Below, piece after piece: positions 670 through 25,227 of a stretch of 29,038 nt of DNA. Position 1 is the first letter of the stretch. The number at the start of each line of letters is the position of its first letter. Under the pieces are notes generated by a model that was not told the DNA's origin, ran no database searches, and was given only the letters and a program-made list of their open reading frames with translations. The stretch comes from a virus. The stretch spans positions 1 to 29,038 of the IMG/VR virus record IMGVR_UViG_3300030090_005362; one strand, given 5' to 3'. The translations under genes and the position numbers were made by a program.

Positions 670-2601
670 ATGGCCCTTAAAAACTTCACAAATCTGGATT
701 TTGACCAGATCAAAGACTCGTTAAAAGATTATTTAAAAGATAATTCAAATTTTAGTGACTATGATTTTGAAGGATCTAACTTAGCATCAATAATTGATGT
801 TCTTGCGTATAATACTTACATCACATCCTATAATGCAAACATGATATCGAATGAAGTTTTCATCGATTCAGCAACTTTGCGTGAGAATGTCGTTGCATTA
901 GCTAGAAATATTGGATATGTACCTCGTTCAAAGAAGTCTTCAAGAGCAGTTGTTACATTTTTTGCAGATATTTCATCTATTTCCCCTACTCCAGCGAGTT
1001 TAGTTTTAAAAAAGGGCCCTGTTGTAAGCACTGGCAATCAATTTGGTGGTCAATCGTTTGTTTTTAACATTCCAGAGGACAAATCTGTTGCAGTAATTGA
1101 TGGAATCGCATCTTTTGATGATCTTGAAGTGTATGAAGGCACTGTTTTAGATCAAACTTTTACATATTCATCAAGAAATCCATTTCAAAAGTTTATTTTA
1201 CCTAACACAGGCATTGATTTAGACACTTTAGTGGTAAAAGTTAAACCATCTGCAAGTTCAACAGTAGCTGTAAAATATCAAAGACATGATAATTTGTTTG
1301 ATAGCGATAGTGGACAAGTTATTAATGGAAATTCAAACATATTTTTTGTTCAAGAGGTTGAAAGTGAAAGATATGAGTTAATTTTTGGTGACGATATCTT
1401 TGGAAAAGCACTTCAAGACGGAAATGTTATAGAGGCATCTTATATTTTAACATCTGGTGATGATGCAAACGGTATTAATTCATTTACGTATGCAGGAAGA
1501 TTAACATTTATTAGAAATTCAGTCGAAATAAATGTGACTGATGGAATTTCACTTGTATCAAATCAGTTACCATCGAGTGGAGGTGAAGTTATAGAAAGCG
1601 TTGACTCTATTCGTAAGTACGCACCTCAAATTTATGCAACTCAAAACAGAGCTTTAAGTGCGAATGATTATGAAATATTAATTCCGAATAAAATATATCC
1701 CGAAACTGAATCAATTTCAGTTTTTGGTGGTGAGGATCTTGTTCCACCTCAATTTGGAAAGGTTTTTATTAGTATTAAACCTCGTAATGGTGATTTTATT
1801 CCAAATGCGATTAAACAAAACATAAAAAGAGATCTTAAAAAGTACGCAGTTGCAGGAATTGTACCAGAAATACTTGATTTGAAGTATTTGTTTGTCGAAA
1901 CAACCAGTAATGTATACTACAATACAAATTTAGCACCAAATTCAGCTTTTGTATCTTCAAAAATTCAAAAAGATATTACAAAATATGCAGAATCGTCTGA
2001 ACTTAATCGATATGGTTCCAGATTTAAGTATAGTAAGTTTTTAAAAGTTATAGATCAGAGTCATGAATCAGTCACATCAAACATAACAACAGTTGAAATG
2101 AGAAGAGATCTTCGATTAGCAATATCAGAAGTTGCAGAATATGCGATTGACTTTGGAAATAAGTTTCACATAAAATCTATGAACGGATTTAACATTCGGT
2201 CAAGTGCTTTTCGAGTTTTAAACGTAAATACGGATGTTTACTTATTTGATATTCCAAATAATGATGGTAAATCTGGTCAGATTGGATTATTTACATTAAG
2301 TGCGGGAACATCAAGTCCAGTTATTGTAAGAAGAAATCTTGGAGTTATAAACTATGAGATAGGACGCATCACTTTAGACCCAATAAATATTGTGTCGGGG
2401 AAAACAAAAGATAATGTTCAAATATTAGAAATATCTGCAACCCCTGAGTCAAATGATGTCATCGGATTACAGGATCTTTATTTACAACTAGATAGTAGTA
2501 TAGTTAACATTGTTGTAGATGAGATCAGTTCTGGTATCGATCCATCAGGTTCAAATTATACAGTCTCAACAAGTTACGCTAACGGAAACATCATAAGATA
2601 A
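670..2601 (+). CDS. gp6: gp6-like baseplate wedge protein
   Basis: This 643-residue protein is close to T4 gp6 (660), the wedge component that forms the ring of dimers around the hub and belongs to the baseplate J-like superfamily. The N-terminal region shows the family pattern: GSNLASIIDVLAYN at residues 35-48, followed by NEVFIDSATLRENVVALARN (61-80) and IGYVPRS. A central beta-rich part contains YELIFGDDIFGKALQDG, and the Ala-rich segment RKYAPQIYATQNRALSANDYE is typical of J-like proteins. The ATG begins immediately after the gp25 TAA with no gap, so translation is probably coupled. The stop is one base before the gp7 ATG. The C-terminal 140 residues are less conserved to my eye. The order gp25-gp6-gp7 supports the assignment. 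Confidence 0.92.
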   Translation: MALKNFTNLDFDQIKDSLKDYLKDNSNFSDYDFEGSNLASIIDVLAYNTYITSYNANMISNEVFIDSATLRENVVALARNIGYVPRSKKSSRAVVTFFADISSISPTPASLVLKKGPVVSTGNQFGGQSFVFNIPEDKSVAVIDGIASFDDLEVYEGTVLDQTFTYSSRNPFQKFILPNTGIDLDTLVVKVKPSASSTVAVKYQRHDNLFDSDSGQVINGNSNIFFVQEVESERYELIFGDDIFGKALQDGNVIEASYILTSGDDANGINSFTYAGRLTFIRNSVEINVTDGISLVSNQLPSSGGEVIESVDSIRKYAPQIYATQNRALSANDYEILIPNKIYPETESISVFGGEDLVPPQFGKVFISIKPRNGDFIPNAIKQNIKRDLKKYAVAGIVPEILDLKYLFVETTSNVYYNTNLAPNSAFVSSKIQKDITKYAESSELNRYGSRFKYSKFLKVIDQSHESVTSNITTVEMRRDLRLAISEVAEYAIDFGNKFHIKSMNGFNIRSSAFRVLNVNTDVYLFDIPNNDGKSGQIGLFTLSAGTSSPVIVRRNLGVINYEIGRITLDPINIVSGKTKDNVQILEISATPESNDVIGLQDLYLQLDSSIVNIVVDEISSGIDPSGSNYTVSTSYANGNIIR

Positions 2602-2602
2602 G

Positions 2603-5600
2603 ATGTCAGAAAAGAGAGTTCAATTAAATCAAATCGTTAAAAACCAATTACCTGCATATGTGCAGGAAGATTTTCCTTTGGTTGGTGAATTTCTTTCGCA
2701 ATATTACTTAGGACAAGAATACAAAGGTGGCCCAGTTGATCTAATACAAAATATAGACTCTTATATCAAATTAAGTGAAAATGCTAATATCATCACATCA
2801 ACTTCTACAACAAAATATGCAGGAATAGGCACAGAAACAATATTTGTATCAAACACTGAAGGATTCCCTGATAATTATGGTCTCATAAAAATAAATGATG
2901 AAATTTTAACATATAAAAGTAAAACAGATATTAGTTTTGTTGAGTGCTCAAGAGGATTTAGTGGTATAACTAATTTTACGAGTGATTCAGATCCAGAAGA
3001 CCTTGTTTTTTCAACCTCTACCGAGGAAAATCATGAAAAAGGCACAAAAGTTGAAAATTTAAGTGTTTTATTTTTAGAGGAATTCCTTAAAAAGGTAAAA
3101 AATCAATTTTTACATGGTTTTAAAAAAGATTTAGACCAAAAATTAAATCAAGCTCAATTTATAAGACAATCAAAAGATTTTTATTCGACACGAGGCACTG
3201 ACGAATCATTTAAAATACTATTTGGTGCCTTATATGGTGAAGAATGTGATATTATTCGTCCAATTGATAATGTCATATCACCATCTAACGCAAACTATAG
3301 AATTACAAGGGATTTAATTGTTGAACCATTAATTGGAGATCCAGAAAATTTAGTAAATTCAAATTTATTTCAAGATGAGTTTGAAAATTTATCAAAAGCG
3401 TACGCTCCAATATCTGCTGTCGAGATAACGTCAGTTGGTATACTTACAGAAAAATATTATAAGATAAGTTTAGACGGATCTTATAATTTTCCAGAGGGAT
3501 CCTCTCCGCTTGCTTTTGGAAACTTTTCAACACATGCAAAAACAAAAATAATCGGTCAAGTTGGTATAGCTCAAACATATTTGGATGTTGATTCTACTTT
3601 AGGATTTCCAAAATCTGGTACACTAACATTTGCTTATCAAAATGGCACTATAGGAGTTTGTACATATGTAAACAAAACAATTAATCAATTTTTAGGAATA
3701 AACACAACAGGGATTACAACAACCATATCAGATAACACTTCAGTTGATCAAAATTCTTTCGCATACGGTTTTGATTCGGATGGGGATCAAATACGAGTAA
3801 AAATAAGATCAGTTTTAAAAGATTTACAAATACCAAGTCAAACATATTATCAAAAAACAGGATCTAGAGTAAAAATAAAATCACTAGGAAAAATAGGTCG
3901 TAATTTTAAAGAAAATAATTGGTTATTCAATACGGCTCAAAGTTATGTTGTAAAAAAACTATCAGTTGTTGATTCTGTTAATAATACGTACAAACTTGAG
4001 ACTAGAGATGAAAACATATTAAGAATTGGTGATAAGATAACAACTCATGAAACAATTTCAACAACTGCACAATGGGGTGATAAAATAACATCCGAGTTTG
4101 ATCCTGCCTCTAATAAAATTTACACTGTTACTGATGTTTTCGATAAAAATACATGTTTGATAACTGGCACCGGAATTTCAGATCCAACTAAGATAACAAA
4201 AGTAACACGTAGAATATCAAAAATTGATTCCGATCTTCATCCTAACTTAAATACATTCACTGCAAACATTCAGAATGTTTATTTAAAACCAGATATTGGA
4301 TTAGTAAATGGAATTCCTTACTATGGGCCATCTCATGAACATAAAGGAAGAAGAATGGTTGGTGCAAAACATACACCATCTCCACATGCCTTTATTGATC
4401 CCGATCCAAACTCAAATAAAGTTTTAGTTGCATCTTCTTCACTTCCATTTGCTGGTGTTACTAAATTAAACCCTAAATTACAAAAATTTACTTTTAGTGG
4501 AACATACAATTTAAATGATGAAGAGATAAAGATATCAGATCAAGTTGATCATAATTATTTTTCAGGTGATGCTGTTTATTATACGCCTGAGAAAACAAAA
4601 GTAGAAACAACTCTTCCTGACGGAACTTTTATCGTACAAGAATCAATAGCTAGTCAAATATTTGACGAGGGGTTGTATTATGTAAAAAGAATTGATTCTA
4701 ACACTGTAAAATTTGCTAAAAGTCAAGCAGATTTAAGTGCTAATAATTTTGTTAAAGTAAAAACACCTAATAGTGTTGATACTGTTACAATTACCTCTAA
4801 TGATATTGAAAAATTTGAGTATCATGGAAAATTTATTGAAAGTCAAAAACTCTTTAGAGAAATATCAACTCCAATACCAAGTGATGTAAAACAAAAAACA
4901 ACAAGTGGTTATACTGGAATATTAATTAATGGAACTGAAATACTTAATTATAAATCTAAAAACTCTGTTTATTATGGTGAATTAAACAACATAAATGTTG
5001 TCAAGGGGGGTGAAGAATATGATGTTATTAACCCACCAATAGTTTCAATCACAGATAATGTTGGATCTGGTGCGACAGGAACATGTTCAGTAAAAGGATC
5101 ATTTAAAGAAATAAGAATTATAGACTCAGGATTTGATTATATTGAATATCCAACAGTTAAAATAACAGGAGGAAATGGATCAGGTGCAAAAGCAGCTGCA
5201 AAGTTAAACAGAGTAGAGAATGAGGTTTTATTTAATGCAGATGGTGTTGGACTCGGCACTGTTAATATTGGATCTGTTTCATCAAGCACTGCTGGTGTAA
5301 ATACATCGTTAATAGGATTTAGTACCTATCATAAGTTTAGAGATGGTGAGAGGGTCATATACGACCCTCTGGGGGGCATTCCATTAGTTGGTTTAGCAAC
5401 AGGGTCAGTGTATTATGTTAATACAATAAGTGAGTATTCAATCAAGTTACACTCCAAATATGATGATGCTGTGGTGGGTCTTAACACTATATCTATTACA
5501 AACTTTGGAAACGGTGTCCAAGTGTTTAAATCTTTGAATGGTAAGGCGATTGTCAGTTCTATCGCATTATTAGATTCTGGATCTAACTATGAAAATAAAG

Positions 5601-8600
5601 AGAGAACATGTAATAGTATTGGAATTAACACTGCATCTAACACAATCAATATACCCAACCATACTTTTAACAGCGGAGAGGTAATTCAATATTCTGTAGA
5701 CGGAACATCCATAGATGGATTGTCCACAACACTTGATTATTACGTTACATCTATAGATGAAGATAATTTTAGATTATCAGCGGTCGGTGTTGGTACAACT
5801 GTAAAAAGTTTTTACTATGATACAAAACAATACCAAAATCTCAGAAGTGTTGGATTAGGGACTCATAAATTTAATTACCCACCAATTAATGTGCAAATTG
5901 TGGGAAAAGTAGGTTTATCATCTGTAGCTGGAAAAACATATGATGCGATTGTACAACCTATTGTAAGAGGGGAAATAACTTCAATTAATTTAACTAATAA
6001 TGGTGTGGGTTACGGTGCCTCTGAAATTATTGGATTAAATCGAAAACCTGATGTTAATTTTAATTCTGGAAGAGACGCAGTTATTATACCAGTAGTTTCA
6101 AATGGAAGGATAGTTGATGTCAGTGTAAGTTATGGTGGAACTGATTACAATTCACCTCCTGATCTAGTTGTTTCTGGAGTTGGATCTGATGCAAAATTAG
6201 TTCCTCAAATGAACTCTGCTGGTAATATAATTTCAGTAAAAATACAAAGCGGAGGAGTGGGATATGGTGTGTCATCAACTTTTGTAAGAGTCGATCCTGC
6301 AGGAAAAGGTGTAAAAGTTGATCCTGTTTTACAAAAGTGGACAATAAATGAATTTAGAAAAAATTTATCTAATTTAAATGATGATGATGTTTTTATTACT
6401 ACACCTGTTAACAGAGATTATGGTTTACAGTGCTCTTATGTATACGCTCCTCGTAATTTAAGAAAAATATCATACGCATCAGATGCTGATGGAAATATTT
6501 TATTTGGTAAGAAAGATCTAACTCTAGTAAATGGAGTAGAGACAGATAGTGATTCTCACTCACCAATATTAGGTTATGCTTACGATGGGCATCCAATATA
6601 TGGCCCTTATGGTTTTCAAAATAAAGACGGTGGAGATATTGTTCAATTATCATCAGGTTATGTAGAAGAAGCAAATAAAAAATCAAATAGACCACCAGCT
6701 AGTATTTTTCCTCCAGAATTTTTTGTTGAGGATTTTACATTTAAAGATTCTCAAGATGATAGTGTTTTAGATGAAAATAATGGTAGATTTTGTATAACAC
6801 CAGAATTTCCAAATGGAACTTACGCTTACTTCGCTACTTTTGATAAAACATCTTCATCTGACGGGATATTTAAAAACTTTAAAAAACCACAATTCCCATA
6901 TATCATAGGTGATGCGTATAATTCAAAACCAAATAAATTTAACTTCTTAAGGTCATCAAGTCAGGATTTCTATGATCTTGAAAATTCTGGATGTATAAGA
7001 AATACATATCCATACGCATTTAATCAGGATTATAGTGGATATGATTATGTCAAACAATCAAATAATTTTGTAGCACAAGATTCCATAATTAATTTTGCTG
7101 AAAAAGGTAAAGTTAATAGAGTTGGAATTTTATCTGCTGGTAGAAACTATCGGATCAATGATACTTTAGTGTTTGATGATAGTGTATCTTCATCATTCAG
7201 AGCAACAGCAAAAGTAAGTCTTTTATCTGGATTTGACATATCAGAAATCAGTGCAACTCAAGAGACAGTTTCAAATATAGAATTTTATCCAGACTCACAA
7301 AATACTTTTGTAGGTATTGCCACCACAAGTATAAATTTACTTAACACTACGGTAGTTAATGTCGGATCTTTATCCACAACAACAACTTCTCTACAAGGTT
7401 CATATGCGATTGGAATAAGATCAGATAAGTATGTTTTATCACAAGGGATAGGAACAGCAGCAGCGACAGGAGTGGTTACATTTATGTCTATTTCTGGTGA
7501 TGTAACCAAAATTCGAGAAAATGATAGATTTAAAGTTGGAATAGGAACTGAAATAGTTAAAGTATTGAATGTCGATAAATTTTCTTCAAGAATAAGAGTA
7601 TTAAGATCACAAAGTGGTATAGCAACTAACATAGGTATTTCTCATACAGCTACAACCATCTTAGAAGAAATTCCTAGAACATTTACAATCAATACTGGAT
7701 TTACATCATCATTATTAGTAAGAAGAAATAAAGAATATTATTTTAATCCAGAGGAGGCAGTTGGTCTTGGAACCACAGCAGGAGTTGGTGTTGGGACATT
7801 CAGAACAATCTCAAATCCGGGTGCTGGCCCGAGTTCTGTTTTTATTCCGAGTCAAGCAATTTATCTATTGAATCATGGTTTAGAAACTGGAGATGAAGTT
7901 ACATATCAGACAGACGGAACACCTTTTAAAGTTAAGTTTGATAGTAATGTTGCTCAAGCAGATGTAACACTTTTTGAAGATTCGCCTTTATTTGTTGCAA
8001 AGTTAGATGATAACTTTATCGGATTATCCACAGTTAAAATAGGTATTGGATCTACCGGAACTTTTGTTGGTATTGGATCAACGTTACAAAGTAAAGTTGT
8101 CGGTGGAGTTGGTGTTGGAACAAATACAAAGATAGATCTGGTATATTTCTTGACAACAGGTGCGGGTAATATTCACAGTTTAAAAACAAATTTCAGAGAT
8201 GCTGTAACTGGTCAAATACAACGCAACACAGTTTCTGTTGTTGGATCTGGTACTCACGGATTGTTAAACAACGATACAGTCTTTATAAATGTAAATCCCG
8301 GTTTAACTACAACTGTTACTGTCAAATACAATGCATCCAACAGGAAAGCGGTTTTCAACCCTCTTCCATTTACAGTGTCTGGAGTTACATCAGCAACATC
8401 ATTAACAGGAATACCTAATACAATAGAAATTGCAAAACATGGACTCACGACTGGACAAAAAGTAATTCATACTTTTGATGATGAAGTTAGTTCCCTTGTA
8501 AATGATAAAGAATATTATGTTTATGTTATTGATAGTGATAGGGTATCATTAGTTGAAGATGAATATGAAGTAAGTAAAATAAAACCAAATTTCGTCAAAC

Positions 8601-11600
8601 TAGGAATATCTACTACAGGAACTCTTTCTCCTATTAATCCACCTTTAAAATTCTATAAGAATTCAACGGTAAATTTTGACCTATCAGATTCATCTTTATC
8701 ATATGTTCAAAATGCAAATAGTTTACCAGCCTTTTTCCTTGAATTGTATAAGGATAGTAAATTTAATAATCCATATGTTACTAATGGTAATGATAAAACT
8801 TTTGAAGTATCTATAACTGGCACAGTGGGTGTAACTGCCGATGCTAAATTAACTTTGAAAATTAATGAAAATTCACCAAATTTATTATATTATAAATTAA
8901 ATCCAGTTAACAAATTAGAAAATAAAGAAGTTAACAAACAAATTATAGTTGACGATACTATAGATTTAAACAATCAAATAATATTACAGAATAGTAAATA
9001 CAATGGAACCTTTAGAATAACATCCACAGGTTCAACGACATTTACATATAATATTGATTCATTCCCTGAAGCTTCATCATATAGTTCATCTGATTCCTCT
9101 CTAAAATACACAACTATTTCAACAACTGCATATGGTGGTATTGAGCGTGTTAGAATAATAGATGGTGGTGGTGGATATGATAGTGTCCCCGGTATAACTA
9201 CAATCACATCTGATGTTGGTATAGGTGCGGTTATTGAAACATTTAGCACAACAATAGGTAAGGTTAGTCGAACTTCATTAGAAAATATAGGATTTGATTA
9301 TCCAAGTGATAACACATTATCTCCAGAGGTTATATTCCCTCAAGTTTTAAGAATAACACCGCTTACTGGATTTAGATCCATTGGTATCACATCTTTAGGA
9401 GTAGGTTATATACAAGATCCAAACTTAGTTGTTTTAGATGGTGTAACAAAAAAACAAATCACTGATGTGGATTTAAGATTTAGACCAGATGAATTGTTTG
9501 TTGAAATATTGGAAAACAGTGAGTCGATGAATGACGCACCCCCAACAATTATTCCAACAGGTAACTCCAATGGTATAAGAATTTCAAATTTGGTCTATGA
9601 TAATGATGAGCAATCAGTCACAGCAACAATAAAAAATGCTTTTAGTGGAGTTGTAGGTTTCTCAGGAACTTACATTGATCCTTTCCCATTTACAGTCGGT
9701 GATAAAGTTTTAGTCGAGAATGCGAGTGTTGGTGTTGGATCAACAGCATCAGGATTTAATTCAGCTAACTATGATTATGCTCGATTTGAAATTACTCAAG
9801 TGACTCCAAACTATGGTGGTATTGGAACTGTCAAGTATAGTATGTCAAACTACTTATCTAAAAATGTAGATTTTCCCGGCATTTTTGATTCAGTAAATTC
9901 AGTCGCTACGCTCATACCTGATAAATGGTTCCCACAATTTGATGTTGAATTACAACCTAACAGGTTTAGAAAGGGGGATGAAGTTGAGAGTTTTAACTCG
10001 GCAGGAACCCAAGTTAGTGGTTTAGTTTTTGATTGGAATAATTCAAACAAATACTTAACAGTTGAAAGTTCACGAGAATTTGAGGTTGGACAATTAATCG
10101 AACAAGTGAGATTTAGAGGTGAGAGAGTTGGAGGTAAAGTCTACGCATCACCAACTGGAGCGAAAGGTCTCATAAAAGAAATTGTTAAATTTGAAAGTAA
10201 ATATGACTTAGACATTTTTTCAATCGTAGAGAATGGGTGGGAGTATAATACTGGATTTTTAAATGATGAACTACAAAGAGTTCATGATAATGATTACTAT
10301 CATGCATTTTCATATTCAATAAAATCAAAGGTTCAATTTGATGAATGGAAAGATATTGTTGGATCTTTGAACCATGCTTCTGGATTTAAAAAATTTAGTG
10401 ATCTACAAGTTGAGTCAGATAAATTATCATCAACATCAGGAAAATTATCCAATATCGATCCTACAAAAAGCACAGTTACAACACTTGTTGATTTAGTAGG
10501 AGTAGAGAGTCTAAACACAGTCTATGATTTTGACTTAGCTACAGAAAATTATCTTATCGCAGTTGAGAAACCATTCTCAGATGAAATAAACTTCCAGACA
10601 AGGTTGATAACAGACTACTCTGAATCAGTATCAAACCGTGTCGTTCAAATTGATGATATTAGCAATATCTTTAACAATAATGCAAGATCAACTCCCTATG
10701 CTGATGTATATCGTAATGCTTTATCAGATGGTAGAACTCAAATGTTCTTCGCTCTTGTATCTGATAGATTATTTACTGGTGAGAGACAGATAACCATTGT
10801 CAATACACTTCATGATACTGGAAAAGGACAAACAATGTTAAACCAGTATGGTGACATTGATACAGTTCTTGATTTAGGATCCTTTGATTATGCAATTGAT
10901 GGAAATGAGTCTGTTTTAAGGTACTATCCAAACAAATTCAAACTCAATAATTATAATGTTGTGTTATGGTCATATCAAATTGATGCTCAACGATTAGGCA
11001 TATCAACTGATACTGTATCATGTGGTAGTACAACCATACCGGGTGCACCATCTAATCCCACAACAGGTTTAAATGGATCATTGATAAGCATTGCTACAAC
11101 AGCAGTCACAATCGCTGGAGGAGCAGCAGGAACAGTCTTTACATTAGGTGGTATTGGTACAAATATATCAGGACATAGATCAGCAAAAGTATTAGTAAGT
11201 GTTGAAGCTGGAGGAGGCATATTAAATGGTAGTGTTGAATATGATCAAGTAAGTTTAATTCATGATGGCACTAATGTTGGTTTCCAAGAGTATGGTCAAT
11301 TAACAATACATTCCGTTGATGCATATTCATCAACAGGAAATCTTGGAACATATTTCCCATTTATGGATGGAAACGATTTAGTTCTTTCATACACTCCTGA
11401 AGCTGGAATGTCAACAGCATTTATAAATGCCATGGCAATTGGTATTGCAACTGAGGGATATATTGGAATCGGATCTTATGAATTTTCTTATGCAGAAATG
11501 TCTGCTCAATCAACAGGTATCTCATCAAGTTCGACTCCTATACCAGTAGGTATTGCAAGTTATGGAGATGAATATGATGCTGCTTATTGTATAGTTCAAA

Positions 11601-14600
11601 TTGCAGATAAGTTGAATGGTAGTTATGAGTTAGCAGAAGTTGTGATGATAGATGATTATGATGGAACTGATCCTGAAAATATAATGTTAACTGAGTTTGG
11701 TAATGTCAAAGTAGGTACAGCGTTTGCTGGATTAGGTACAATAAGTGCAAGGAGAACTGGTGCAGATGATGAAATTACTGAATTAACCTTTGTTCCAAAT
11801 GCGGGTATTGGTGTTTCAATCACAACATTTATGAATGCTCTGAGACCTGAAGAAAATACATCACTACTACCAACTGAAGCAACAAGAGAAGTGGGTGGAG
11901 AAGCAGTCAAAGATTTACAAAACGCTTCACTAGAAAGTGGATTCGCAATATATGAGGGTACTCAAACATCAATCAAGAGACAATTTGCTCTAGAGAATAA
12001 TGGAAACCCAATATTCAAAAAACCTTATGATGGATCAAGCACCGATGTTGTTGATCTTACTAATAATATAATTACCCTTCCTAATCATTTCTTTACCACA
12101 GGTCAGAAGGTAAATTATTCACCCGGTGCTGGAACATCAATCGGTATAAGCACTGCACCATTTAGTATGCCATCATCAGTGTTTATTATTAAAAAAGGTG
12201 AAGATAAAGTTCAGGTTGCTCTTACAGCTGAAAATGCATTAAAACAAATTGCACTACCAATAGGCCTATCAACAGTTGGTATTGGAACAAGTCATACCTT
12301 TACTGCAATTGATGCGAATCAAAAAGTCTTAGTTGCGATTGATAATGCGATACAATCACCGATTGCTGGAACTTCAGTTACCACTACAATTTCAGAAAAA
12401 ACAAATATAGGTGACGATGTTGTATTCTTTAGTGGAATCACATCATTCTTTGGCGCAGATTATGTAAGAGTGGGAGCTGGAGACACGCAGGAAATAATGA
12501 AAATTATATCTGTTGGTGTAGGATCAACTAACGCTATAAAAGTAAGAAGAGGTTGGTTAGGGACTACAATAGCAGGATTTAGCACTGGTGATTTAGTAGA
12601 AAAAATAAGAGGTAATTATAATATTGTTGAGAATGAAATTAACTTTATTGAAGCACCTCCCGGAAAAAATCCAATCGGATCAACAACCAATCCTCCGGAT
12701 GCAAGAGACTTTGAGGGTATAACAACATCATCAAGTTTCCAAGGAAGGGTATTTACTAGAAGTGGTGTTATTGGAGGAACTGAAGAGACATATACTGATA
12801 ATTACCTATTTGATGATTTAACTCAAGGATTCAATGGATTAACAAAAGAATTTAGTTTGACACATAATAATGGCACTGCAATCTCAGGAGTTGCCACCAA
12901 TAACGCTTTAGTTCTTCTTAACGGTGTTCTACAAACTCCCGGATCAAATGGAGACTTTACACTTGCAGAAGACTCTGGCACCACATTGTCATGGACTGGA
13001 TCAGGAATCGTAACAGCAACAAGAGATGCCAACGCTGCTTCCATACCTGTTGGTGGTTTAATAGTTTCAGTTGGATCAACAAGAGGATTTGGATATCAAC
13101 CACTCATTGGTGCGGGTGGAACAGTTGGTATCGGCACATCAACAGGTAAAGTTTTATTTGTATCGATTGGTAATTCTGGATCTGGTTATAGACCAGAAGT
13201 CCAAACTGTTGTAAATGTCGCTATACAAACTGAAAGATTTGATGGTGCTGGAGTCTTCTCTATTGGAACAGCAGCAGTATCTGATGGTCACGTAACAAGT
13301 GTAGCAATAACAACCGATAGAGTATTCTATATTCCTAGAGATATAACAAATGTTGGTTACACATCTATTACTGGTCTTACAACTGTTACAACATCAACAG
13401 CACATAATTTATCTGTTGGTAATGAAATAGTATTATCTGGAATCGCATTTACTTGTGATTATGCCCCAGCTGTTGGAGTTCAAAGTGCAGTTTACACTAA
13501 TACAACAGGAATAATGACAGTAACAACATCTGCTGCTCATGGTTTATCAACAACTGGTAAGAGTAGTGATGTTTTACTAACTGGACTTGGATTTACTTGT
13601 GCTTTAGATAATGGTGGTGCACTTCATTATTATCCTCGTGCAAACTCTGTCACTAATCCACATGGTGGCGATCCAATTTACTGTGGAACACCTGTTATCG
13701 GCGTTGCAAGTGCCACACAGTTTACAATCAACGCTGGTATATCAACAGTTCCAACATTCTATGTTTCTGGTGGTAGTGCTCAACCCGTATTGATAGCACC
13801 AAGAGGTAATAATAATTCTGCGAGTGGACAAGATGTTGGATTTGATGGATCAACTGTGTTAAAAGTTTTGAATAGCACTCAGTTTGAGGTTAACACAGGT
13901 ATATCAACAAGACCTCATAATTATGCGAGGTGCGGTAAAGTAAATCAATTAATGAAAGTTGTAATTGATGAACCATTACCATATACTGATATCCCTCTTG
14001 TCTATAGTGCAAGTTCACCGGGAATAGGAGGAACAGAGACAAGAGCAGACGTTGTGGTAAGTCAAGGATCCACTGTTATTGACTTTAAGATAACAAATCT
14101 AGGATATGGTTATGGTGTAAATCAAATATTAACTTTACCTTTAGCTGGTATTGATACTTATTTTTCATCTGTTGGCATACCTACCACTGCGAATCCAAAT
14201 TTTGAAGAAATAGAATTTACAATTAGTGAAGTTGATAGTGATCAATTCACTGGTTGGGCAGTTGGACAACTACAGATATTAGATGATTTCTCAAATCTAT
14301 TCACTGGATCAAGAAGAACATTTCCAATATCAGTTGGTGGTGATGCGTTATCAATACAATCTAGACCCGGATCTCTTGTAAAAGTTGAGGATACGTTATT
14401 TGTATTCATAAATGATATTCTTCAAATACCCGGTGAATCATACTCATTCCCCGGTGGTGCATCAATTACATTTGATGAACCACCTAAATCGGGCGATAGG
14501 TTGAAAATATTATTCTATAGAGGAACGGGTGGTGCTGATGTGGTTGATAGAGATGTGATTGCCACTGTCAAAGTTGGTGATACACTTACACTTGGATATC

Positions 14601-15808
14601 ATGATACATTAGGTCAAAAAGATTGGTTACAAGAAAATGAAAGAAGTGTTGTTGAAATAACATCATCCAATTCAGTTGATACAAATGCATATGATGGCCC
14701 CGGTGTGTTTGAGGATACTAGAGAGAAGCGACCCGTTAAATGGACAAAACAAACCGAAGATCTCTTTATTGAAGGTAAGATTGTAAGTAAGAGTCGTGAA
14801 TTATATGATGGCAGAATTTTCCCAACAACAAACTTTATACAATCTGTTGGTGTCGGTACAACAATCGCATATTTAAGTAATTTGAGACCATTCTTTAATC
14901 CAAAGAATGAGAACCTCGTTGCAACTGATTTCCAAAAAGATATTGTTATATTTAATAATGCTGAAAGAGTTGCTGCTGCTGCAACAGCTGTTGTTTCTGC
15001 TGCAGGAACAATCTCAAGTGTCATTATATCTGATGGTGGTAAAGGATATACAAGTGCTCCAACTGTCACTATTCAAAATCCAGTTGGACTTGGTACAACT
15101 GCTCGTGCTGAGGCTACAGCAACTATTGCGAATGGTTCTGTCTCTGCAATTACAGTTGGTGTTCAATCTGGAATCGGATACACAGGAACTAATCCTCCCG
15201 TTGTATTGATAGGTGCTCAACCAACACTTACTGAAAGTAATACTGTTGTATCATTTACAGGTGATAGTGGTGTGATTAGTGGTATCGCTATCACAACTGT
15301 TGGTAGTATCACTCATCCCACGATTCAACTGGATTTAGTCATTCCATATGACTCTGATTTAAGAAATTCAGATATTACACAAGGTGCAACAAATGCAATC
15401 ACAGAGTCTGCAATAGCAGTTGGTGATTATTTTGTAATTAAAAATTCAAACGTTGGTTCTGCAAGATCATCAATGGATTATAGTGATGACAGTATCGTTG
15501 GTATCGGAACAACCTTCATAGATAATGTGTATCGTGTGGCTGCTGTATCGGGAGTAACAACTGATGCAGTTGGATTTGGACAAACTGCGTTGACAAGAGT
15601 TATTGTAAGTGTTGCAAATACCGCTGGACTCGTTGGACTTGCCAATAGCACTTATTATGGTGACTATAGTTTTGGTAAAATTATTATGTCTGATCGTAAT
15701 GTTTCTCGTGCTTACACTGTAAATACTTCAAATGGTATTACTGGAATCGAGACTGGTGTTATATTAACAAGAAAGACTTCCTTAAAAGTAGGAAGTTATA
15801 CCACATAA
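2603..15808 (+). CDS. gp7: Giant gp7-like baseplate wedge protein (4401 residues) with YHYH-type and repeated beta modules
   Basis: This gene fills the T4 gene 7 slot between gp6 and gp8 but encodes 4401 residues against about 1030 in T4. Three blocks resemble the C-terminal third of T4 gp7 as I recall it. Residues 22-56 contain FPLVGEFLSQYY. Residues 165-220 contain DFYSTRGTDESFKILFGALY. Residues 2553-2605 contain NDELQRVHDNDYYHAFSYSI and the SGFKKF ending. About 2300 residues are thus inserted between blocks two and three, and about 1800 follow. The insert holds a histidine-rich segment (about 569-600), a YHYH-type signature DGHPIYGPYGF (about 1325-1336), many IxxxGxGY modules and HGLxTGxxVxY modules. 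The C-terminal part has two NGxLQxPG modules (about 3434 and 3933) resembling T4 gp10. No signal peptide or membrane segment is evident. Inferred role: wedge assembly and the outer baseplate. Related marine genes are often called VrlC-like. Structural identity is near certain; the gp7 identity is good but rests on remembered sequence. Confidence 0.8.
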   Translation: MSEKRVQLNQIVKNQLPAYVQEDFPLVGEFLSQYYLGQEYKGGPVDLIQNIDSYIKLSENANIITSTSTTKYAGIGTETIFVSNTEGFPDNYGLIKINDEILTYKSKTDISFVECSRGFSGITNFTSDSDPEDLVFSTSTEENHEKGTKVENLSVLFLEEFLKKVKNQFLHGFKKDLDQKLNQAQFIRQSKDFYSTRGTDESFKILFGALYGEECDIIRPIDNVISPSNANYRITRDLIVEPLIGDPENLVNSNLFQDEFENLSKAYAPISAVEITSVGILTEKYYKISLDGSYNFPEGSSPLAFGNFSTHAKTKIIGQVGIAQTYLDVDSTLGFPKSGTLTFAYQNGTIGVCTYVNKTINQFLGINTTGITTTISDNTSVDQNSFAYGFDSDGDQIRVKIRSVLKDLQIPSQTYYQKTGSRVKIKSLGKIGRNFKENNWLFNTAQSYVVKKLSVVDSVNNTYKLETRDENILRIGDKITTHETISTTAQWGDKITSEFDPASNKIYTVTDVFDKNTCLITGTGISDPTKITKVTRRISKIDSDLHPNLNTFTANIQNVYLKPDIGLVNGIPYYGPSHEHKGRRMVGAKHTPSPHAFIDPDPNSNKVLVASSSLPFAGVTKLNPKLQKFTFSGTYNLNDEEIKISDQVDHNYFSGDAVYYTPEKTKVETTLPDGTFIVQESIASQIFDEGLYYVKRIDSNTVKFAKSQADLSANNFVKVKTPNSVDTVTITSNDIEKFEYHGKFIESQKLFREISTPIPSDVKQKTTSGYTGILINGTEILNYKSKNSVYYGELNNINVVKGGEEYDVINPPIVSITDNVGSGATGTCSVKGSFKEIRIIDSGFDYIEYPTVKITGGNGSGAKAAAKLNRVENEVLFNADGVGLGTVNIGSVSSSTAGVNTSLIGFSTYHKFRDGERVIYDPLGGIPLVGLATGSVYYVNTISEYSIKLHSKYDDAVVGLNTISITNFGNGVQVFKSLNGKAIVSSIALLDSGSNYENKERTCNSIGINTASNTINIPNHTFNSGEVIQYSVDGTSIDGLSTTLDYYVTSIDEDNFRLSAVGVGTTVKSFYYDTKQYQNLRSVGLGTHKFNYPPINVQIVGKVGLSSVAGKTYDAIVQPIVRGEITSINLTNNGVGYGASEIIGLNRKPDVNFNSGRDAVIIPVVSNGRIVDVSVSYGGTDYNSPPDLVVSGVGSDAKLVPQMNSAGNIISVKIQSGGVGYGVSSTFVRVDPAGKGVKVDPVLQKWTINEFRKNLSNLNDDDVFITTPVNRDYGLQCSYVYAPRNLRKISYASDADGNILFGKKDLTLVNGVETDSDSHSPILGYAYDGHPIYGPYGFQNKDGGDIVQLSSGYVEEANKKSNRPPASIFPPEFFVEDFTFKDSQDDSVLDENNGRFCITPEFPNGTYAYFATFDKTSSSDGIFKNFKKPQFPYIIGDAYNSKPNKFNFLRSSSQDFYDLENSGCIRNTYPYAFNQDYSGYDYVKQSNNFVAQDSIINFAEKGKVNRVGILSAGRNYRINDTLVFDDSVSSSFRATAKVSLLSGFDISEISATQETVSNIEFYPDSQNTFVGIATTSINLLNTTVVNVGSLSTTTTSLQGSYAIGIRSDKYVLSQGIGTAAATGVVTFMSISGDVTKIRENDRFKVGIGTEIVKVLNVDKFSSRIRVLRSQSGIATNIGISHTATTILEEIPRTFTINTGFTSSLLVRRNKEYYFNPEEAVGLGTTAGVGVGTFRTISNPGAGPSSVFIPSQAIYLLNHGLETGDEVTYQTDGTPFKVKFDSNVAQADVTLFEDSPLFVAKLDDNFIGLSTVKIGIGSTGTFVGIGSTLQSKVVGGVGVGTNTKIDLVYFLTTGAGNIHSLKTNFRDAVTGQIQRNTVSVVGSGTHGLLNNDTVFINVNPGLTTTVTVKYNASNRKAVFNPLPFTVSGVTSATSLTGIPNTIEIAKHGLTTGQKVIHTFDDEVSSLVNDKEYYVYVIDSDRVSLVEDEYEVSKIKPNFVKLGISTTGTLSPINPPLKFYKNSTVNFDLSDSSLSYVQNANSLPAFFLELYKDSKFNNPYVTNGNDKTFEVSITGTVGVTADAKLTLKINENSPNLLYYKLNPVNKLENKEVNKQIIVDDTIDLNNQIILQNSKYNGTFRITSTGSTTFTYNIDSFPEASSYSSSDSSLKYTTISTTAYGGIERVRIIDGGGGYDSVPGITTITSDVGIGAVIETFSTTIGKVSRTSLENIGFDYPSDNTLSPEVIFPQVLRITPLTGFRSIGITSLGVGYIQDPNLVVLDGVTKKQITDVDLRFRPDELFVEILENSESMNDAPPTIIPTGNSNGIRISNLVYDNDEQSVTATIKNAFSGVVGFSGTYIDPFPFTVGDKVLVENASVGVGSTASGFNSANYDYARFEITQVTPNYGGIGTVKYSMSNYLSKNVDFPGIFDSVNSVATLIPDKWFPQFDVELQPNRFRKGDEVESFNSAGTQVSGLVFDWNNSNKYLTVESSREFEVGQLIEQVRFRGERVGGKVYASPTGAKGLIKEIVKFESKYDLDIFSIVENGWEYNTGFLNDELQRVHDNDYYHAFSYSIKSKVQFDEWKDIVGSLNHASGFKKFSDLQVESDKLSSTSGKLSNIDPTKSTVTTLVDLVGVESLNTVYDFDLATENYLIAVEKPFSDEINFQTRLITDYSESVSNRVVQIDDISNIFNNNARSTPYADVYRNALSDGRTQMFFALVSDRLFTGERQITIVNTLHDTGKGQTMLNQYGDIDTVLDLGSFDYAIDGNESVLRYYPNKFKLNNYNVVLWSYQIDAQRLGISTDTVSCGSTTIPGAPSNPTTGLNGSLISIATTAVTIAGGAAGTVFTLGGIGTNISGHRSAKVLVSVEAGGGILNGSVEYDQVSLIHDGTNVGFQEYGQLTIHSVDAYSSTGNLGTYFPFMDGNDLVLSYTPEAGMSTAFINAMAIGIATEGYIGIGSYEFSYAEMSAQSTGISSSSTPIPVGIASYGDEYDAAYCIVQIADKLNGSYELAEVVMIDDYDGTDPENIMLTEFGNVKVGTAFAGLGTISARRTGADDEITELTFVPNAGIGVSITTFMNALRPEENTSLLPTEATREVGGEAVKDLQNASLESGFAIYEGTQTSIKRQFALENNGNPIFKKPYDGSSTDVVDLTNNIITLPNHFFTTGQKVNYSPGAGTSIGISTAPFSMPSSVFIIKKGEDKVQVALTAENALKQIALPIGLSTVGIGTSHTFTAIDANQKVLVAIDNAIQSPIAGTSVTTTISEKTNIGDDVVFFSGITSFFGADYVRVGAGDTQEIMKIISVGVGSTNAIKVRRGWLGTTIAGFSTGDLVEKIRGNYNIVENEINFIEAPPGKNPIGSTTNPPDARDFEGITTSSSFQGRVFTRSGVIGGTEETYTDNYLFDDLTQGFNGLTKEFSLTHNNGTAISGVATNNALVLLNGVLQTPGSNGDFTLAEDSGTTLSWTGSGIVTATRDANAASIPVGGLIVSVGSTRGFGYQPLIGAGGTVGIGTSTGKVLFVSIGNSGSGYRPEVQTVVNVAIQTERFDGAGVFSIGTAAVSDGHVTSVAITTDRVFYIPRDITNVGYTSITGLTTVTTSTAHNLSVGNEIVLSGIAFTCDYAPAVGVQSAVYTNTTGIMTVTTSAAHGLSTTGKSSDVLLTGLGFTCALDNGGALHYYPRANSVTNPHGGDPIYCGTPVIGVASATQFTINAGISTVPTFYVSGGSAQPVLIAPRGNNNSASGQDVGFDGSTVLKVLNSTQFEVNTGISTRPHNYARCGKVNQLMKVVIDEPLPYTDIPLVYSASSPGIGGTETRADVVVSQGSTVIDFKITNLGYGYGVNQILTLPLAGIDTYFSSVGIPTTANPNFEEIEFTISEVDSDQFTGWAVGQLQILDDFSNLFTGSRRTFPISVGGDALSIQSRPGSLVKVEDTLFVFINDILQIPGESYSFPGGASITFDEPPKSGDRLKILFYRGTGGADVVDRDVIATVKVGDTLTLGYHDTLGQKDWLQENERSVVEITSSNSVDTNAYDGPGVFEDTREKRPVKWTKQTEDLFIEGKIVSKSRELYDGRIFPTTNFIQSVGVGTTIAYLSNLRPFFNPKNENLVATDFQKDIVIFNNAERVAAAATAVVSAAGTISSVIISDGGKGYTSAPTVTIQNPVGLGTTARAEATATIANGSVSAITVGVQSGIGYTGTNPPVVLIGAQPTLTESNTVVSFTGDSGVISGIAITTVGSITHPTIQLDLVIPYDSDLRNSDITQGATNAITESAIAVGDYFVIKNSNVGSARSSMDYSDDSIVGIGTTFIDNVYRVAAVSGVTTDAVGFGQTALTRVIVSVANTAGLVGLANSTYYGDYSFGKIIMSDRNVSRAYTVNTSNGITGIETGVILTRKTSLKVGSYTT
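4987..6295 (+). repeat. Cluster of IxxxGxGY beta modules in the gp7-like gene
   Basis: This segment encodes residues about 796-1231 of the gp7-like protein. It contains six copies of a degenerate motif of the form IxxIxIxxGGxxYxxPPxVxI, for example EIRIIDSGFDYIEYPTVKI, ITSINLTNNGVGYG, DVSVSYGGTDYNSPPDLVV and SVKIQSGGVGYG. The copies are protein-level repeats with diverged DNA. Further single copies occur at residues about 1504, 2179, 2256, 3516, 3825, 4137 and 4180 of the same protein. The pattern suggests short beta-hairpin or beta-solenoid units; that structural reading is inference. Confidence 0.7.
5349..5370 (+). repeat. Perfect 8-bp inverted repeat (hairpin) inside the gp7-like gene
   Basis: AGAGGGTC at 5349-5356 and GACCCTCT at 5363-5370 are exact reverse complements separated by a 6-base loop. 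The element is GC-rich in an AT-rich gene and is followed at once by a run of six G (5371-5376). There is no T-tract after it, so it is not a standard intrinsic terminator. It lies in coding sequence for the region DGERVIYDPLGGIP, so it may be chance or an RNA structure. Confidence 0.6.
15776..15796 (+). repeat. 7-bp inverted repeat at the 3' end of the gp7-like gene
   Basis: ACTTCCT at 15776-15782 and AGGAAGT at 15790-15796 are exact reverse complements around a 7-base loop, ending ten bases before the TAA (15806-15808). It sits just before a CATAAATA motif that could start transcription of gp8. No U-rich tract follows, so termination is doubtful. Other possibilities are protection of the 3' end of an upstream mRNA, or chance. 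Confidence 0.4.
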
Positions 15809-15829: not shown

Positions 15830-17386
15830 ATGTCTGCCATAATAACTGACCAGATAAGAATATTAAATGCGAAGAATTTTGTAGCTGGAGTATCTTCATC
15901 GTCTAATTCTTATTATACTTTTGTCGGTTTGACAGATCCGACAATAATTCAAGCAACATGGAATAATAATCCCCCTGCACCAATCGATAGTTTTGATGAT
16001 CAAAACGATTATTATGATACTATGATTGCCTTGAAAAAGGTTAACGCAAGTGATGTAAAACAAGTAGTGCGAAAAAATAGTTGGAATTCTGGAACAACAT
16101 ATGATTATTATAGGCCAGATTATAGTATTAACAATCCCCCAAAGAATGGACAAGGAACCACATTATACAATGCAACTTATTATGTGGTGAATAGTGACTT
16201 TAGAGTTTATATTTGTCTAGAGAATGGTACAAATCCAGAAAATCCAGATGGTAAACCATCTCTTGATGAACCAACATTTACAGATTTAGAACCAAAAGCA
16301 GCGGGTTCGAGTGGAGATGGATATATTTGGAAATACCTTTACACAATAAAACCATCAGAGCTTGTAAAGTTTGATTCAACAGAATTTATGCCAGTGCCTT
16401 CAGACTGGTCTACTGGTACTGATAATGCCTCTGTAAGAGACAACGCAGTCGATGGTGGTGTGAAAGTTGTTATTGTGCAAAACAGAGGTGTAGGTTTAGG
16501 AACTGCAAATAGAACTTACACAAGAGTTCCAATCAAAGGAGATGGAAGTGGTGCTGAATGCACCGTAACTGTAAATGCTGATCAACAAATAGGATCTGTT
16601 ATAGTTACCAATCAAGGCTCTGGATATACATTTGGAACCGTTGATATTGTTGCTGGTGGTTTACCAAGACCAGACTCATATCCTCAACTTGATGTAATCA
16701 TCCCACCACAAGGTGGACATGGTAAGGACATTTACAAAGAGTTAGGAGCATCAAATGCTTTAGTTTATTCACGTATTGAAAATGATCCAGAAAATCCAGA
16801 CTTTATCACAGGTAATCAAATATCTCGAATTGGGATAATAGAAAATCCACAAGCGTTTGGATCATCATCTTTACTCACTTTAGATAAAGCAAGTGCAGCT
16901 TATGCTTTGAGACTAACTGGAACAGGATACAGTTCAGCAACTTTTACTCCAGATTCAATCATAACACAAACAACTGGAACAGGAGTTACAGCTATTGGTA
17001 GAGTTCTTGGATATGATCAAGTGACTGGAGTTCTTAAATATTGGCAAGATCGTAATCAGGCAGGTTTTACAACTGTCGGTCTCGGCACTACATCACCAAT
17101 TTATGGTTTTAACGCAGATAGATTTACTGCTGAGATATCTGATGGTGGAAGTTTTAGTATTGTTCCTGATGATGGATCAAATACACTTGCTATTAACACC
17201 TCTTTTAGTGGTCTATCCACCTCAATAAATAATAAAACATACTATCTTGGTCAGACATTTACAAAAGGTGTGTCAAACCCAGAGGTTAAAAAATACTCTG
17301 GTAATATAATATACGTTGATCATCGACCAGCCATCACCCGTTCTTCTAATCAAAAAGAAGATATTAAAGTTATATTGCAATTCTAA
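15830..17386 (+). CDS. gp8: gp8-like baseplate wedge protein, enlarged
   Basis: This 518-residue protein is homologous to T4 gp8 (334 residues), the dimeric wedge protein that joins gp7 and gp10 early in wedge assembly. The best marks are GDGYIWKYLYTIKPSE (about 162-177), matching the T4 GDGYVWEYLF segment, and the C-terminus NIIYVDHRPAITRSSNQKED followed by IKVILQF (about 491-518), matching the T4 ending. The N-terminus has SNSYYTFVGLTDPT and a Trp-rich stretch, as in gp8. The roughly 180 extra residues lie mostly between these marks and include an IxxxGxGY module (SVIVTNQGSGYTFG, about 255-270), the same type of unit found in the neighbouring giant proteins. A short gap of 21 bases with a CATAAATA motif precedes it. 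Six bases separate its stop from the next ATG. Confidence 0.92.
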   Translation: MSAIITDQIRILNAKNFVAGVSSSSNSYYTFVGLTDPTIIQATWNNNPPAPIDSFDDQNDYYDTMIALKKVNASDVKQVVRKNSWNSGTTYDYYRPDYSINNPPKNGQGTTLYNATYYVVNSDFRVYICLENGTNPENPDGKPSLDEPTFTDLEPKAAGSSGDGYIWKYLYTIKPSELVKFDSTEFMPVPSDWSTGTDNASVRDNAVDGGVKVVIVQNRGVGLGTANRTYTRVPIKGDGSGAECTVTVNADQQIGSVIVTNQGSGYTFGTVDIVAGGLPRPDSYPQLDVIIPPQGGHGKDIYKELGASNALVYSRIENDPENPDFITGNQISRIGIIENPQAFGSSSLLTLDKASAAYALRLTGTGYSSATFTPDSIITQTTGTGVTAIGRVLGYDQVTGVLKYWQDRNQAGFTTVGLGTTSPIYGFNADRFTAEISDGGSFSIVPDDGSNTLAINTSFSGLSTSINNKTYYLGQTFTKGVSNPEVKKYSGNIIYVDHRPAITRSSNQKEDIKVILQF

Positions 17387-17392
17387 TCACCC

Positions 17393-20300
17393 ATGGCACA
17401 AACAACCAATCTAAATGTATCGCCATATTTTGACGATTTTAATGCAGATGATAATTATTATAAAGTTTTATTCAAACCGGGTTTTCCAGTTCAAGCGAGA
17501 GAGTTAACTGGTTTACAGTCCATACTACAGGATCAAATTGCAAAATTTGGTACCCATATGTTCAAAGAGGGTGCAAAAGTTATACCCGGAAATACAACTT
17601 ATAATAGTAATTTTGCTTGTGTAGAAATAAATAATGAGTATCTTGGTGTCACTGTAAAATCATATGTTGATCAATTACTAAATCGTAAAATTGTAGGTTT
17701 AAGAACTGGTGTATCAGCAACTGTTGTAAAAATATTAGATTCAACAGATTCTATAAGAGATAATTTAACATTATACATTAGATATGACACTTCAAGCACA
17801 TCAAACGAAAACTCATCTATTGCGAGTGGTGAATTATTAGCAGCAGATATTGATATTGTTTCTGGGCCAGAAAATAGCACATTTATACCCAAAGGAGAAG
17901 CGTTTGCAGGTGCGATCTCTCAAAATGCAGCATCAATAGCTTCATCTTTCTCAATTTCAGAAGGTGTTTATTTTATAAGAGGAACTTTTGTCAGTGTTGC
18001 ATCTCAAACAATTCTTTTAGATCAATATGGAAACACACCAACTGGAAGAATTGGATTAAGAGTTTTAGAGGAAACTGTTAATTCTGATGAAGATTCATCA
18101 TTAACTGACAACTCAAAAGGATTCAATAACTTTGCAGCACCGGGTGCTGATAGATTAAAGATAAGTTGCTCATTATTTTTCAAACCTTTAGACGATACAA
18201 ACGATGATGATTTTGTTGAATTAGCATCGGTAAGATCTGGTATTCTAAGAACAAGACCAACTACATCTGATTATAATTTACTAAATGATGAACTAGCAAG
18301 AAGAACATTCGCTGAATCTGGTGATTATACCGTTAAACCTTTTTCAATTAGAGTAAGAGAGTCTTTAAATGATGATTTAGGAAATGGTGGTGTATTCGGT
18401 CAAGGTCAAGCAACTGAATCTGGAGTTGTCGCTAATGATGATCTTGCTTTATTCCAAGTATCTGCGGGAAAGGCATTTGTTAAAGGATATGAAATAGAAA
18501 CTATATCATCATCTTTTCTTGATGTTGAGAAACCTAGAACTACAAAGAAAATAGAAAGTCAGAGAGTTAATTATAAAACAGGTGCAACATTAACACTTAA
18601 TAGACAGACAGGATCACCAGAAGTCGGAATTGGTAATACATTTGTAGTGAGTTTGAGAGATCAAAGATCTGATGGTTTACCAACTGGTGGATCTATCGTG
18701 GGATCGGAAATAGGTGTTGCTAGAGTATATGATTTTGTTTTAGAGTCTGGATCATACAATGCAACTAACTCAAATATTAATGAGTATGATATATCACTTT
18801 TTGATGTTCAAACATTCACTAATGTTACATTAAACCAAGCAATTACGTTAAGCACACCTGCTTTTATAAAAGGTAAATTTAGTGGAGCAACTGGATTCTT
18901 AAGATCAAATGCAAGTAACACAACATCTTTATCAATATACGATAGATCTGGTGATTTAGTTCCGAATGAACCATTAATTATTAATGGAGAGGAGAATAGT
19001 AGAATAGCTTTGGCAGTCACATCATTTGGTATTAGTGACGTTAAATCATTATATGCAGGCCCTAATCTAGGAAATGTTGGATCTGCAAAAAGTTTTGTTG
19101 CAGATGTGGTTCAACAAGATTTATTTAATTTTGGAGATGCAACAATAACAGTTGTTAATGGAAAAACTGGTTTAAGTACAATTACATGTGGAAATCCATT
19201 GTTCCCAAGTAGGCTTAAAGTTGGTAATTTACTTACTTTTGGTGGTTTAGATAATGATTTAAAATCTATGGTAAGAATTACAGAGGTTGGGACATCTAGT
19301 ATCTCTGTAACAGGGGTTGCCACAGTTACCGGTGTAACTGAGGGTCAACTACCATTGATTAGTTCTGTTGGCGTTACAACAGGTGCTTTAGATTCAGAGG
19401 TAAATGGATTTTTAAATACACCTGATTTAACATTAATATCAACACCTTTTTCAAGATCTGATGACAACACTCTCTTTACAGAGATGCCAAGAAAAAATGT
19501 ATCAGATGTTGATATATCATCAGCAACTTTAAATATTAGAAAAACTTTTGATGTAACAATAAATGCATCAGATGATCAATTAACAACTGCAGTTTTAGCT
19601 GGAACTAATGAAACATTTTTACCATTTGATGAGGAAAGATACTCACTTATAAGAAAAGATGGAGTTCAAGAAAGATTAACTGATGATAAGTTTGAATTTA
19701 GTGATGGTAATGGGACTTTACAAATAAGTAATATTGGATCAGATTTAAGTGGAAATTTAGATGCCACACTTGTTGCAACATTGGCTAAAACGAGTGTAAC
19801 GGCAAAGGTAAAAAGAAAACAAAGAATAAATTCTCAACTTATAGACAAATCATCTTCAACTGGATCTGGAACTGGGGGTGCAACTTTAAACGACGGATTA
19901 ACTGCTGGTGGATATCCTTTTGGAACTCGTGTGCAAGATGAAAAAATATCTCTTAATACTCCAGATGTTTTAAGAGTATTGGGTATATTTGAGTCTTTAT
20001 CAACAGCAGATCCATCTGCTCCCAAAATGATTTTATCTTCAATTGATAGTCCTGCTGGTAAAACCACAGATTTAATCATAGGTGAAAAAATAAAAGGTTT
20101 ACAATCAGGTGCGGTCGCAGTTGTGGCAGAAATTTTATCAGACTCTCAAATATCATTTGTAATCTTAAATGATATAGGTTTTAGAGAGGGTGAATTTGTA
20201 AACTTTGAAGAGTCAGCAGTGCAAGCTGTGGTTAATACGTTAGATAATGTAAGTAAAAATATTACAGGAAATTATAGTTTTAATACTGGACAAAAATCAA

Positions 20301-25003: not shown

Positions 25004-25227
25004 TGTCTTACATCAAAGTTAAAGATAACGAACATTTTCTTAGGAATACAGAATCTAACTGTATTATCAATACTAATAAATCTGAGTACGAGAGATACAT
25101 GTCTCTTCGTAAAATAAAACAAGGTGAGACAAACAAAGTGGAGAATCTTGAGAGAGATATATCGACACTTAGAAATGAAATCACTGAAATTAAAGATATG
25201 TTAAGGAGTCTGGTAAATGGCAACTAA
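25003..25227 (+). CDS. Small coiled-coil phage protein, 74 residues
   Basis: The ATG shares one base with the stop of the preceding giant gene (TAATG at 25001-25005), so it is probably translated by coupling. The N-terminal half (MSYIKVKDNEHFLRNTESNC, then IINTNKSEYERYM) resembles small conserved proteins of marine T4-like phages, as I recall them. Residues about 45-70 (VENLERDISTLRNEITEIKD) have a clear heptad pattern of Leu and Ile and should form a coiled coil. It lies where T4 has wac (fibritin, a trimeric coiled-coil neck fibre), but it is far shorter and I see no sequence link to fibritin. Its last 11 bases overlap the next gene in another frame. Probably a small virion or assembly protein; function unknown. 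Confidence 0.75.
   Translation: MSYIKVKDNEHFLRNTESNCIINTNKSEYERYMSLRKIKQGETNKVENLERDISTLRNEITEIKDMLRSLVNGN
25203..25208 (+). promoter_or_regulatory. Strong ribosome binding site (AAGGAG) that fixes the start of the 141-residue protein
   Basis: AAGGAG lies within the end of the coiled-coil gene, 8 bases before the ATG at 25217. It is one of the best Shine-Dalgarno matches in the window and supports an 11-base gene overlap instead of a downstream start. Confidence 0.75.

Follow-up and report, generated by a model that had tools for sequence, protein, structure and literature searches.

Gene order and the giant reading frame

The record IMGVR_UViG_3300030090_005362 is a complete viral record of 29,038 bases, with no larger genome behind it, and was analysed over its full length (hereafter the window). 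All recognised genes of the window lie on the plus strand, in the order gp25, gp6, an ORF of 4401 codons, gp8, a DUF4815 protein of 2536 aa, two small ORFs, gp13, gp14 and gp15. The giant ORF (2603-15808) has on one side the homologues of gp25 (268-669; PF04965, E 2.4e-17) and gp6 (670-2601; PF21379, E 1.3e-15) and on the other that of gp8 (15830-17386; PF09215, E 3.4e-13). The gene gp25 comes first, and the order gp6-gp7-gp8 that follows it is that of T4. Then, the DUF4815 (VrlC-type) protein (17393-25003; PF16075, E 2e-55; PHROG 358) occupies the place of T4 gp9-gp12, and homologues of gp13 (25666-26514), gp14 (26519-27946) and gp15 (27969-28994) were recognised by PHROGs 211, 460 and 227, respectively. 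Two small ORFs of 74 and 141 aa, within 25003-25642, stand at the position of the T4 genes preceding gp13; for the longer, a PHROG match (E 1e-13) points to L-shaped tail fibre assembly. This arrangement is of the Kyanoviridae type, as in SynMITS9220M01, S-SM2, P-SSM2 and Bellamy.

The 4401-residue frame that had been predicted at this locus is present and contains no internal stop; its product has a mass of 473.7 kDa and a pI of 4.9. It is matched over residues 605-4395 by PHROG 2885 "baseplate wedge subunit" (3294.9 bits), and its orthologues are annotated as gp7 or baseplate wedge initiator; NCBIfam holds no model for the giant gp7. The ORF is an intact gene in the structural cluster of a T4-like cyanophage of the Kyanoviridae. 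That its length could result from frame joining or another assembly or annotation artefact has a negligible probability. The gp7 frame is indeed broken in a few contigs (L218, L069, L074), probably through errors of sequencing or assembly. However, an open frame with this layout recurs in cultured genomes and independent contigs, about 100 in all (the independent contigs have intact ORFs of 4,392-5,000 aa), synonymous changes dominate, and giant homologues were detected in virions by mass spectrometry. Among relatives, S-SZBM1 virions contain a 6,619-aa "baseplate wedge initiator" identified by 71 peptides (PMC9146016), S-CREM2 virions a 1,937-aa wedge protein that comes after the inner wedge proteins (PMC10665884), and S-SM1 virions a member of cluster T4-GC969 (PMC3037559), to which the giant gp7 of Syn19 belongs according to its record note. 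On these grounds the artefact was rejected.

The giant gp7 is already known. A tblastn search of deposited phage records retrieved the N-terminal block in 467 records and block 3 (see below) in 413, nearly all of them cyanophages and many labelled baseplate wedge initiator or gp7. The gene is carried by over 400 deposited phages; it is lineage-wide, already annotated and not special to the window. The gp7 proteins of SynMITS9220M01, Bellamy, S-SM2 and P-SSM2 (4067-5195 aa, the longest that of P-SSM2) share with the window the gene position, block order, insertion site and YHYH domain, and differ merely in sequence divergence and module lengths; over residues 1-250, the identity with SynMITS9220M01, Bellamy and S-SM2 is 53-58%. 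No description of a split gp7 core was found in the literature searched. The present analysis adds the insertion site, a series of gap sizes, a C-terminal module that is separable, and evidence that speaks against the published absence of gp7.

A wedge core in three blocks

Three gp7-like blocks had been predicted at residues 22-56, 165-220 and 2553-2605. Block 1 (residues 1-60; 2603-2782) is an N-terminal helical segment, supported by the alignments of intermediates and, at low confidence, by AF2 helices. In T4 gp7 it corresponds to the helical domain (643-689); judged by its position, it also corresponds to residues 1-48 of gp17 of Vibrio phage XM1 (PMC10457771). A small beta module (residues 66-152; 2798-3058), predicted by AF2 with a pLDDT of about 70-83 over most of its length, separates it from block 2 (residues 150-260; 3050-3382), which includes FYSTRGTDESFKILFGALYGEE and corresponds to T4 gp7 717-759. 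Block 3 (residues 2520-2610; 10160-10432) includes HDNDYYHAFSYSIKSKVQFDEWKDIVGSLNHASGF and corresponds to T4 gp7 864-889, just past domain V (766-861) and ahead of domain VI (920-1012).

Block 2 is recognised directly. In an hmmsearch of all PDB sequences with a profile of 46 sequences, built from residues 1-560 of the cyanophage family, T4 gp7 was the first match (E 4.4e-5, through T4 727-758 in block 2), followed by another T4-like gp7 (E 1.8e-4). The comparison of block 2 with a nine-member profile of T4-like gp7 by hhalign gave P 96.7 and E 3e-10, and, with single T4 proteins as control, gp7 scored 67.7 against at most 20.5 for 11 others. Block 1 was supported through intermediates: residues 13-207 of the YB07 protein are colinear with T4 650-830, a segment containing part of the helical domain (643-689) plus block 2, and the block is also in place in HTVC008M and in Pfam family PF23786. 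Compared directly with T4 864-889, block 3 is weak (E 0.002; its score of 32.7 exceeds those of all 60 shuffles, the best of which reached 26.8), but it is strong against the gp7 of pelagiphages (E 1.5e-10), YB07 (503 aa; 3e-7), Desulfovibrio phage 7757 (586 aa; 3e-11) and S-CRM01 (1454 aa; 3e-12). Its assignment is secure because each of these intermediates has significant matches to both block 2 and block 3 within one protein. Chance resemblance of the blocks was rejected on the background of the 11 other T4 proteins and on the shuffle controls. Significant profile matches, direct for block 2, through intermediates for block 1 and chiefly through them for block 3, therefore uphold the reading of this protein as a gp7 core of T4 type that a giant insertion has split.

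The three blocks match one compact baseplate-wedge family, PF23786. Over its full length this family is represented by a 293-aa gene that immediately follows gp6 in the Ackermannviridae phage SH19 (Kuttervirus); this protein and the 335-aa protein of Vibrio phage D506, likewise directly after gp6, have blocks 1, 2 and 3 in that order, with blocks 2 and 3 nearly adjacent and no insertion, unlike the window. In the window gp7, PF23786 matches block 2 only, with 18.7 bits, under the curated cut-off of 27 bits; the YB07 and HTVC008M homologues exceed this cut-off. In Syn19 (6484 codons) and HTVC008M (1016), one ORF contains profile positions 4-54, 153-230 and 231-280 in this order, and partial sets were found in S-H38 (blocks 2 and 3), S-SM2 and YB07 (blocks 1 and 2), P-SSM2 (block 2) and Bellamy (block 1). 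A separate gp7 elsewhere in the genome was sought in complete relatives, where PF23786, wherever detected, lies in a single ORF per genome. The compact homologues directly after gp6 in HTVC008M (L008:19436-22486), D506 (L270:8760-9767) and Salmonella phage SH19 (L271:8739-9620) are labelled "head closure Hc2", which looks like a propagated mislabel. The 242-aa gp17 of XM1 is a tiny orthologue of T4 gp7 that was set beside the window through its published description; it sits in a (gp16)2-gp17 wedge, where a loop and the C-terminus anchor peripheral tail spikes (PMC10457771).

T4 gp7 itself (1032 aa; PDB 5IV5/5HX2) also lies between gp6 and gp8 and shares with the window gp7 the succession of helical domain, block 2 and block 3. 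Its core, however, is preceded by about 640 residues, and only domain V (96 residues) separates block 2 from block 3, whereas the window gp7 starts directly with the core and has about 2,170 residues in the place of domain V. The gp7 proteins of cyanophages, pelagiphages and YB07 begin with the core; the large addition of T4 is the 640 residues before its helical domain. The T4 N-terminal domains (1-640) and domains V and VI have no Pfam match in the window gp7. As HTVC008M and YB07 lack them too, we take these domains as probable traits of the T4 branch and not of the whole gp7 family.

The structure predictions were of low confidence. The AF2 model of residues 1-560 (pLDDT 66 overall) places helices where the core bundle is expected, those of block 1 at residues 8-14, 18-23, 25-36 and 45-60, while the region of block 3 (residues 2350-2760) gave a pLDDT of 44 and no fold. 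Foldseek of the 1-560 model against the PDB returned no match with E <0.001 (T4 gp7, E 0.16). A single-sequence PDB search with the whole 4401-aa protein gave chance matches only, the PDB sequence searches retrieved no solved cyanophage relative, and those with the 293-aa and 335-aa minimal proteins gave no match.

According to a published statement, pelagi- and cyanomyophages have no T4 Gp7, and VrlC appears to stand in for it (PMC7029224). On a rival reading, the giant ORF would be a tail-fibre or adhesin-like protein with borrowed N-terminal wedge motifs, and another protein, such as VrlC/DUF4815, would replace gp7 as in that statement; that much of the giant chain is beta-rich and partly repetitive agrees with such a view. 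We consider it very unlikely: a single ORF between gp6 and gp8 contains all three blocks in their order, short gp7 proteins with the core blocks coexist with DUF4815 in HTVC008M and YB07, and VrlC is a separate gene after gp8 whose Pfam scan shows DUF4815 alone. The statement of absence is contested here because gp7 core blocks are present in cyanophages and pelagiphages. With high confidence, we regard the giant protein as a Kyanoviridae baseplate-wedge gp7 whose core is split by an insertion of about 2,170 residues and whose extra mass lies outside the core.

Insertion and C-terminal extension

The insertion (about residues 280-2452; 3440-9958) lies between blocks 2 and 3, where T4 gp7 has its domain V of about 96 residues (766-861). 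The large gap that had been predicted was found, with a smaller figure: about 2,170 residues (2,174 between the profile edges of blocks 2 and 3) instead of about 2300. For T4, about 105 residues were measured in place of the supposed couple of hundred. The gap amounts to 241 residues in YB07, 384-449 in pelagiphages, about 1,000 in S-CRM01 and 2,053-2,587 in 114 cyanophage ORFs, which represent about 100 distinct contigs and genomes as some loci overlap. In several branches, then, material has gone into one and the same site of the wedge protein.

Purifying selection acts on the insertion. Between the window and contig L093 (95.7% identical), dN/dS was 0.06 in the insertion, 0.07 in the N-terminal core and 0.01-0.13 in the C-terminal parts. 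In the comparison with the more distant contig L104 (67%), the insertion (0.23) evolved faster than the core (0.07-0.09) and was still constrained.

Within the insertion, residues 1314-1416 (6542-6850) match positions 87-185 of the 193 of the YHYH profile PF14240 (E 7.4e-20). YHYH proteins have been predicted to act as a tail-associated metal hydrolase (PMC7824862). An enzyme activity of the partial domain of the window is doubtful, since its motif reads Y-A-Y-F and a single His (1321) is invariant in the matched half among the about 140 homologues compared; the N-terminal half of the profile is unmatched. Y-A-Y-F replaces the YHYH motif across cyanophage gp7 proteins. In Syn19, a second YHYH protein of 1399 aa (L007:25381-29580) is encoded just upstream of gp8, beside the 6483-aa gp7.

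Two kinds of repeats were also found. A GY-type beta repeat is common to gp7 (10 copies), gp14 (26519-27946; 4 copies), gp8 (15830-17386; 2 copies) and the DUF4815 protein (17393-25003; 1 copy), which suggests one decorating module common to several wedge and neck proteins. An FCCH-like repeat, in 5 copies, was found in gp7 only.

After block 3, the further stretch of about 1800 residues of the original prediction was confirmed as a tail of about 1,790 (residues 2611-4401; 10433-15805); a PDB sequence search with the C-terminal 1,802 residues retrieved no solved relative. In S-SSM7 (L006:19989-39083), two genes correspond to the giant ORF, one of 3007 aa with blocks 1-3 and one of 3001 aa that matches the window gp7 from about residue 3310, and a gp9-like gene sits between them. 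The last ~1,100 residues of the window gp7 are thus a separable module, as they have their own gene in S-SSM7. The giant ORF could then be a fusion of gp7 (about 3,000 N-terminal residues) with a once-separate baseplate protein (about 1,100 C-terminal residues), a serious possibility against which we lean slightly. The two genes of S-SSM7, with the gp9-like gene in between, agree with a fusion, but a fission in S-SSM7 would account for them equally well. A fusion would also leave the insertion between blocks 2 and 3 unexplained, and so it complements the reading as a split gp7 core and does not replace it.

Implications for the outer baseplate

In the proposed arrangement, blocks 1, 2 and 3 would together form a compact wedge core joining two gp6 chains in a (gp6)2-gp7 heterotrimer, with the gp6 homologue of the window (670-2601) as the expected partner. 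At the point of T4 domain V, about 2,170 mostly beta-rich and partly repetitive residues, including the YHYH-type domain, are inserted, and about 1,790 more extend beyond the core, the final ~1,100 as a separable module. Each wedge would then contain one gp7 chain of about 470 kDa, presumably six copies per baseplate, with most of the mass outside the core. This extra mass would point outwards as part of the outer baseplate and probably present adhesive or receptor-facing modules.

The original prediction saw in gp7 the scaffold on which the outer baseplate of this lineage was built. Such a role is plausible but only partly supported, and an exclusive one is put in doubt by HTVC008M, which, with a short gp7 of 1016 aa, has no gp9/10 N-domain or gp11 either. 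The domains PF07880 (gp9/10 N-domain) and PF08677 (gp11), which match strongly in T4 and CZ01, gave no match in SynMITS9220M01, P-SSM2, S-SM2 and Bellamy, four complete relatives with an unsplit gp7 of 4,067-5,195 aa. This absence fits gp7 taking over the periphery. However, a gp9/10-like gene stands beside the giant gp7 in S-SSM7, Syn19 and S-H38. The DUF4815 (VrlC) protein was found in all Kyanoviridae tested and in YB07, is absent from T4 and CZ01, and is the constant non-T4 component. The loss of the T4 peripheral proteins therefore tracks DUF4815 better than the size of gp7. We infer that the giant gp7 contributes mass to the outer baseplate. That the inserted and C-terminal modules of the single-gene giant gp7, with DUF4815, make up the whole outer baseplate and replace T4 gp9, gp10 and gp11 seems to us rather unlikely; if true, what in T4 is a peripheral apparatus of many subunits would here be part of a single wedge-core chain.

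T4-like cyanophages are among the commonest viruses in the sea. The present comparisons speak against the view that cyanophages and pelagiphages lack gp7, which would instead have been hidden by insertions or by the "head closure" label. At one site, the wedge core accepts anything from almost no insertion to about 2,500 inserted residues, and this tolerance suggests a route by which T4-like baseplates may diversify at their periphery while the contraction machinery is left untouched.
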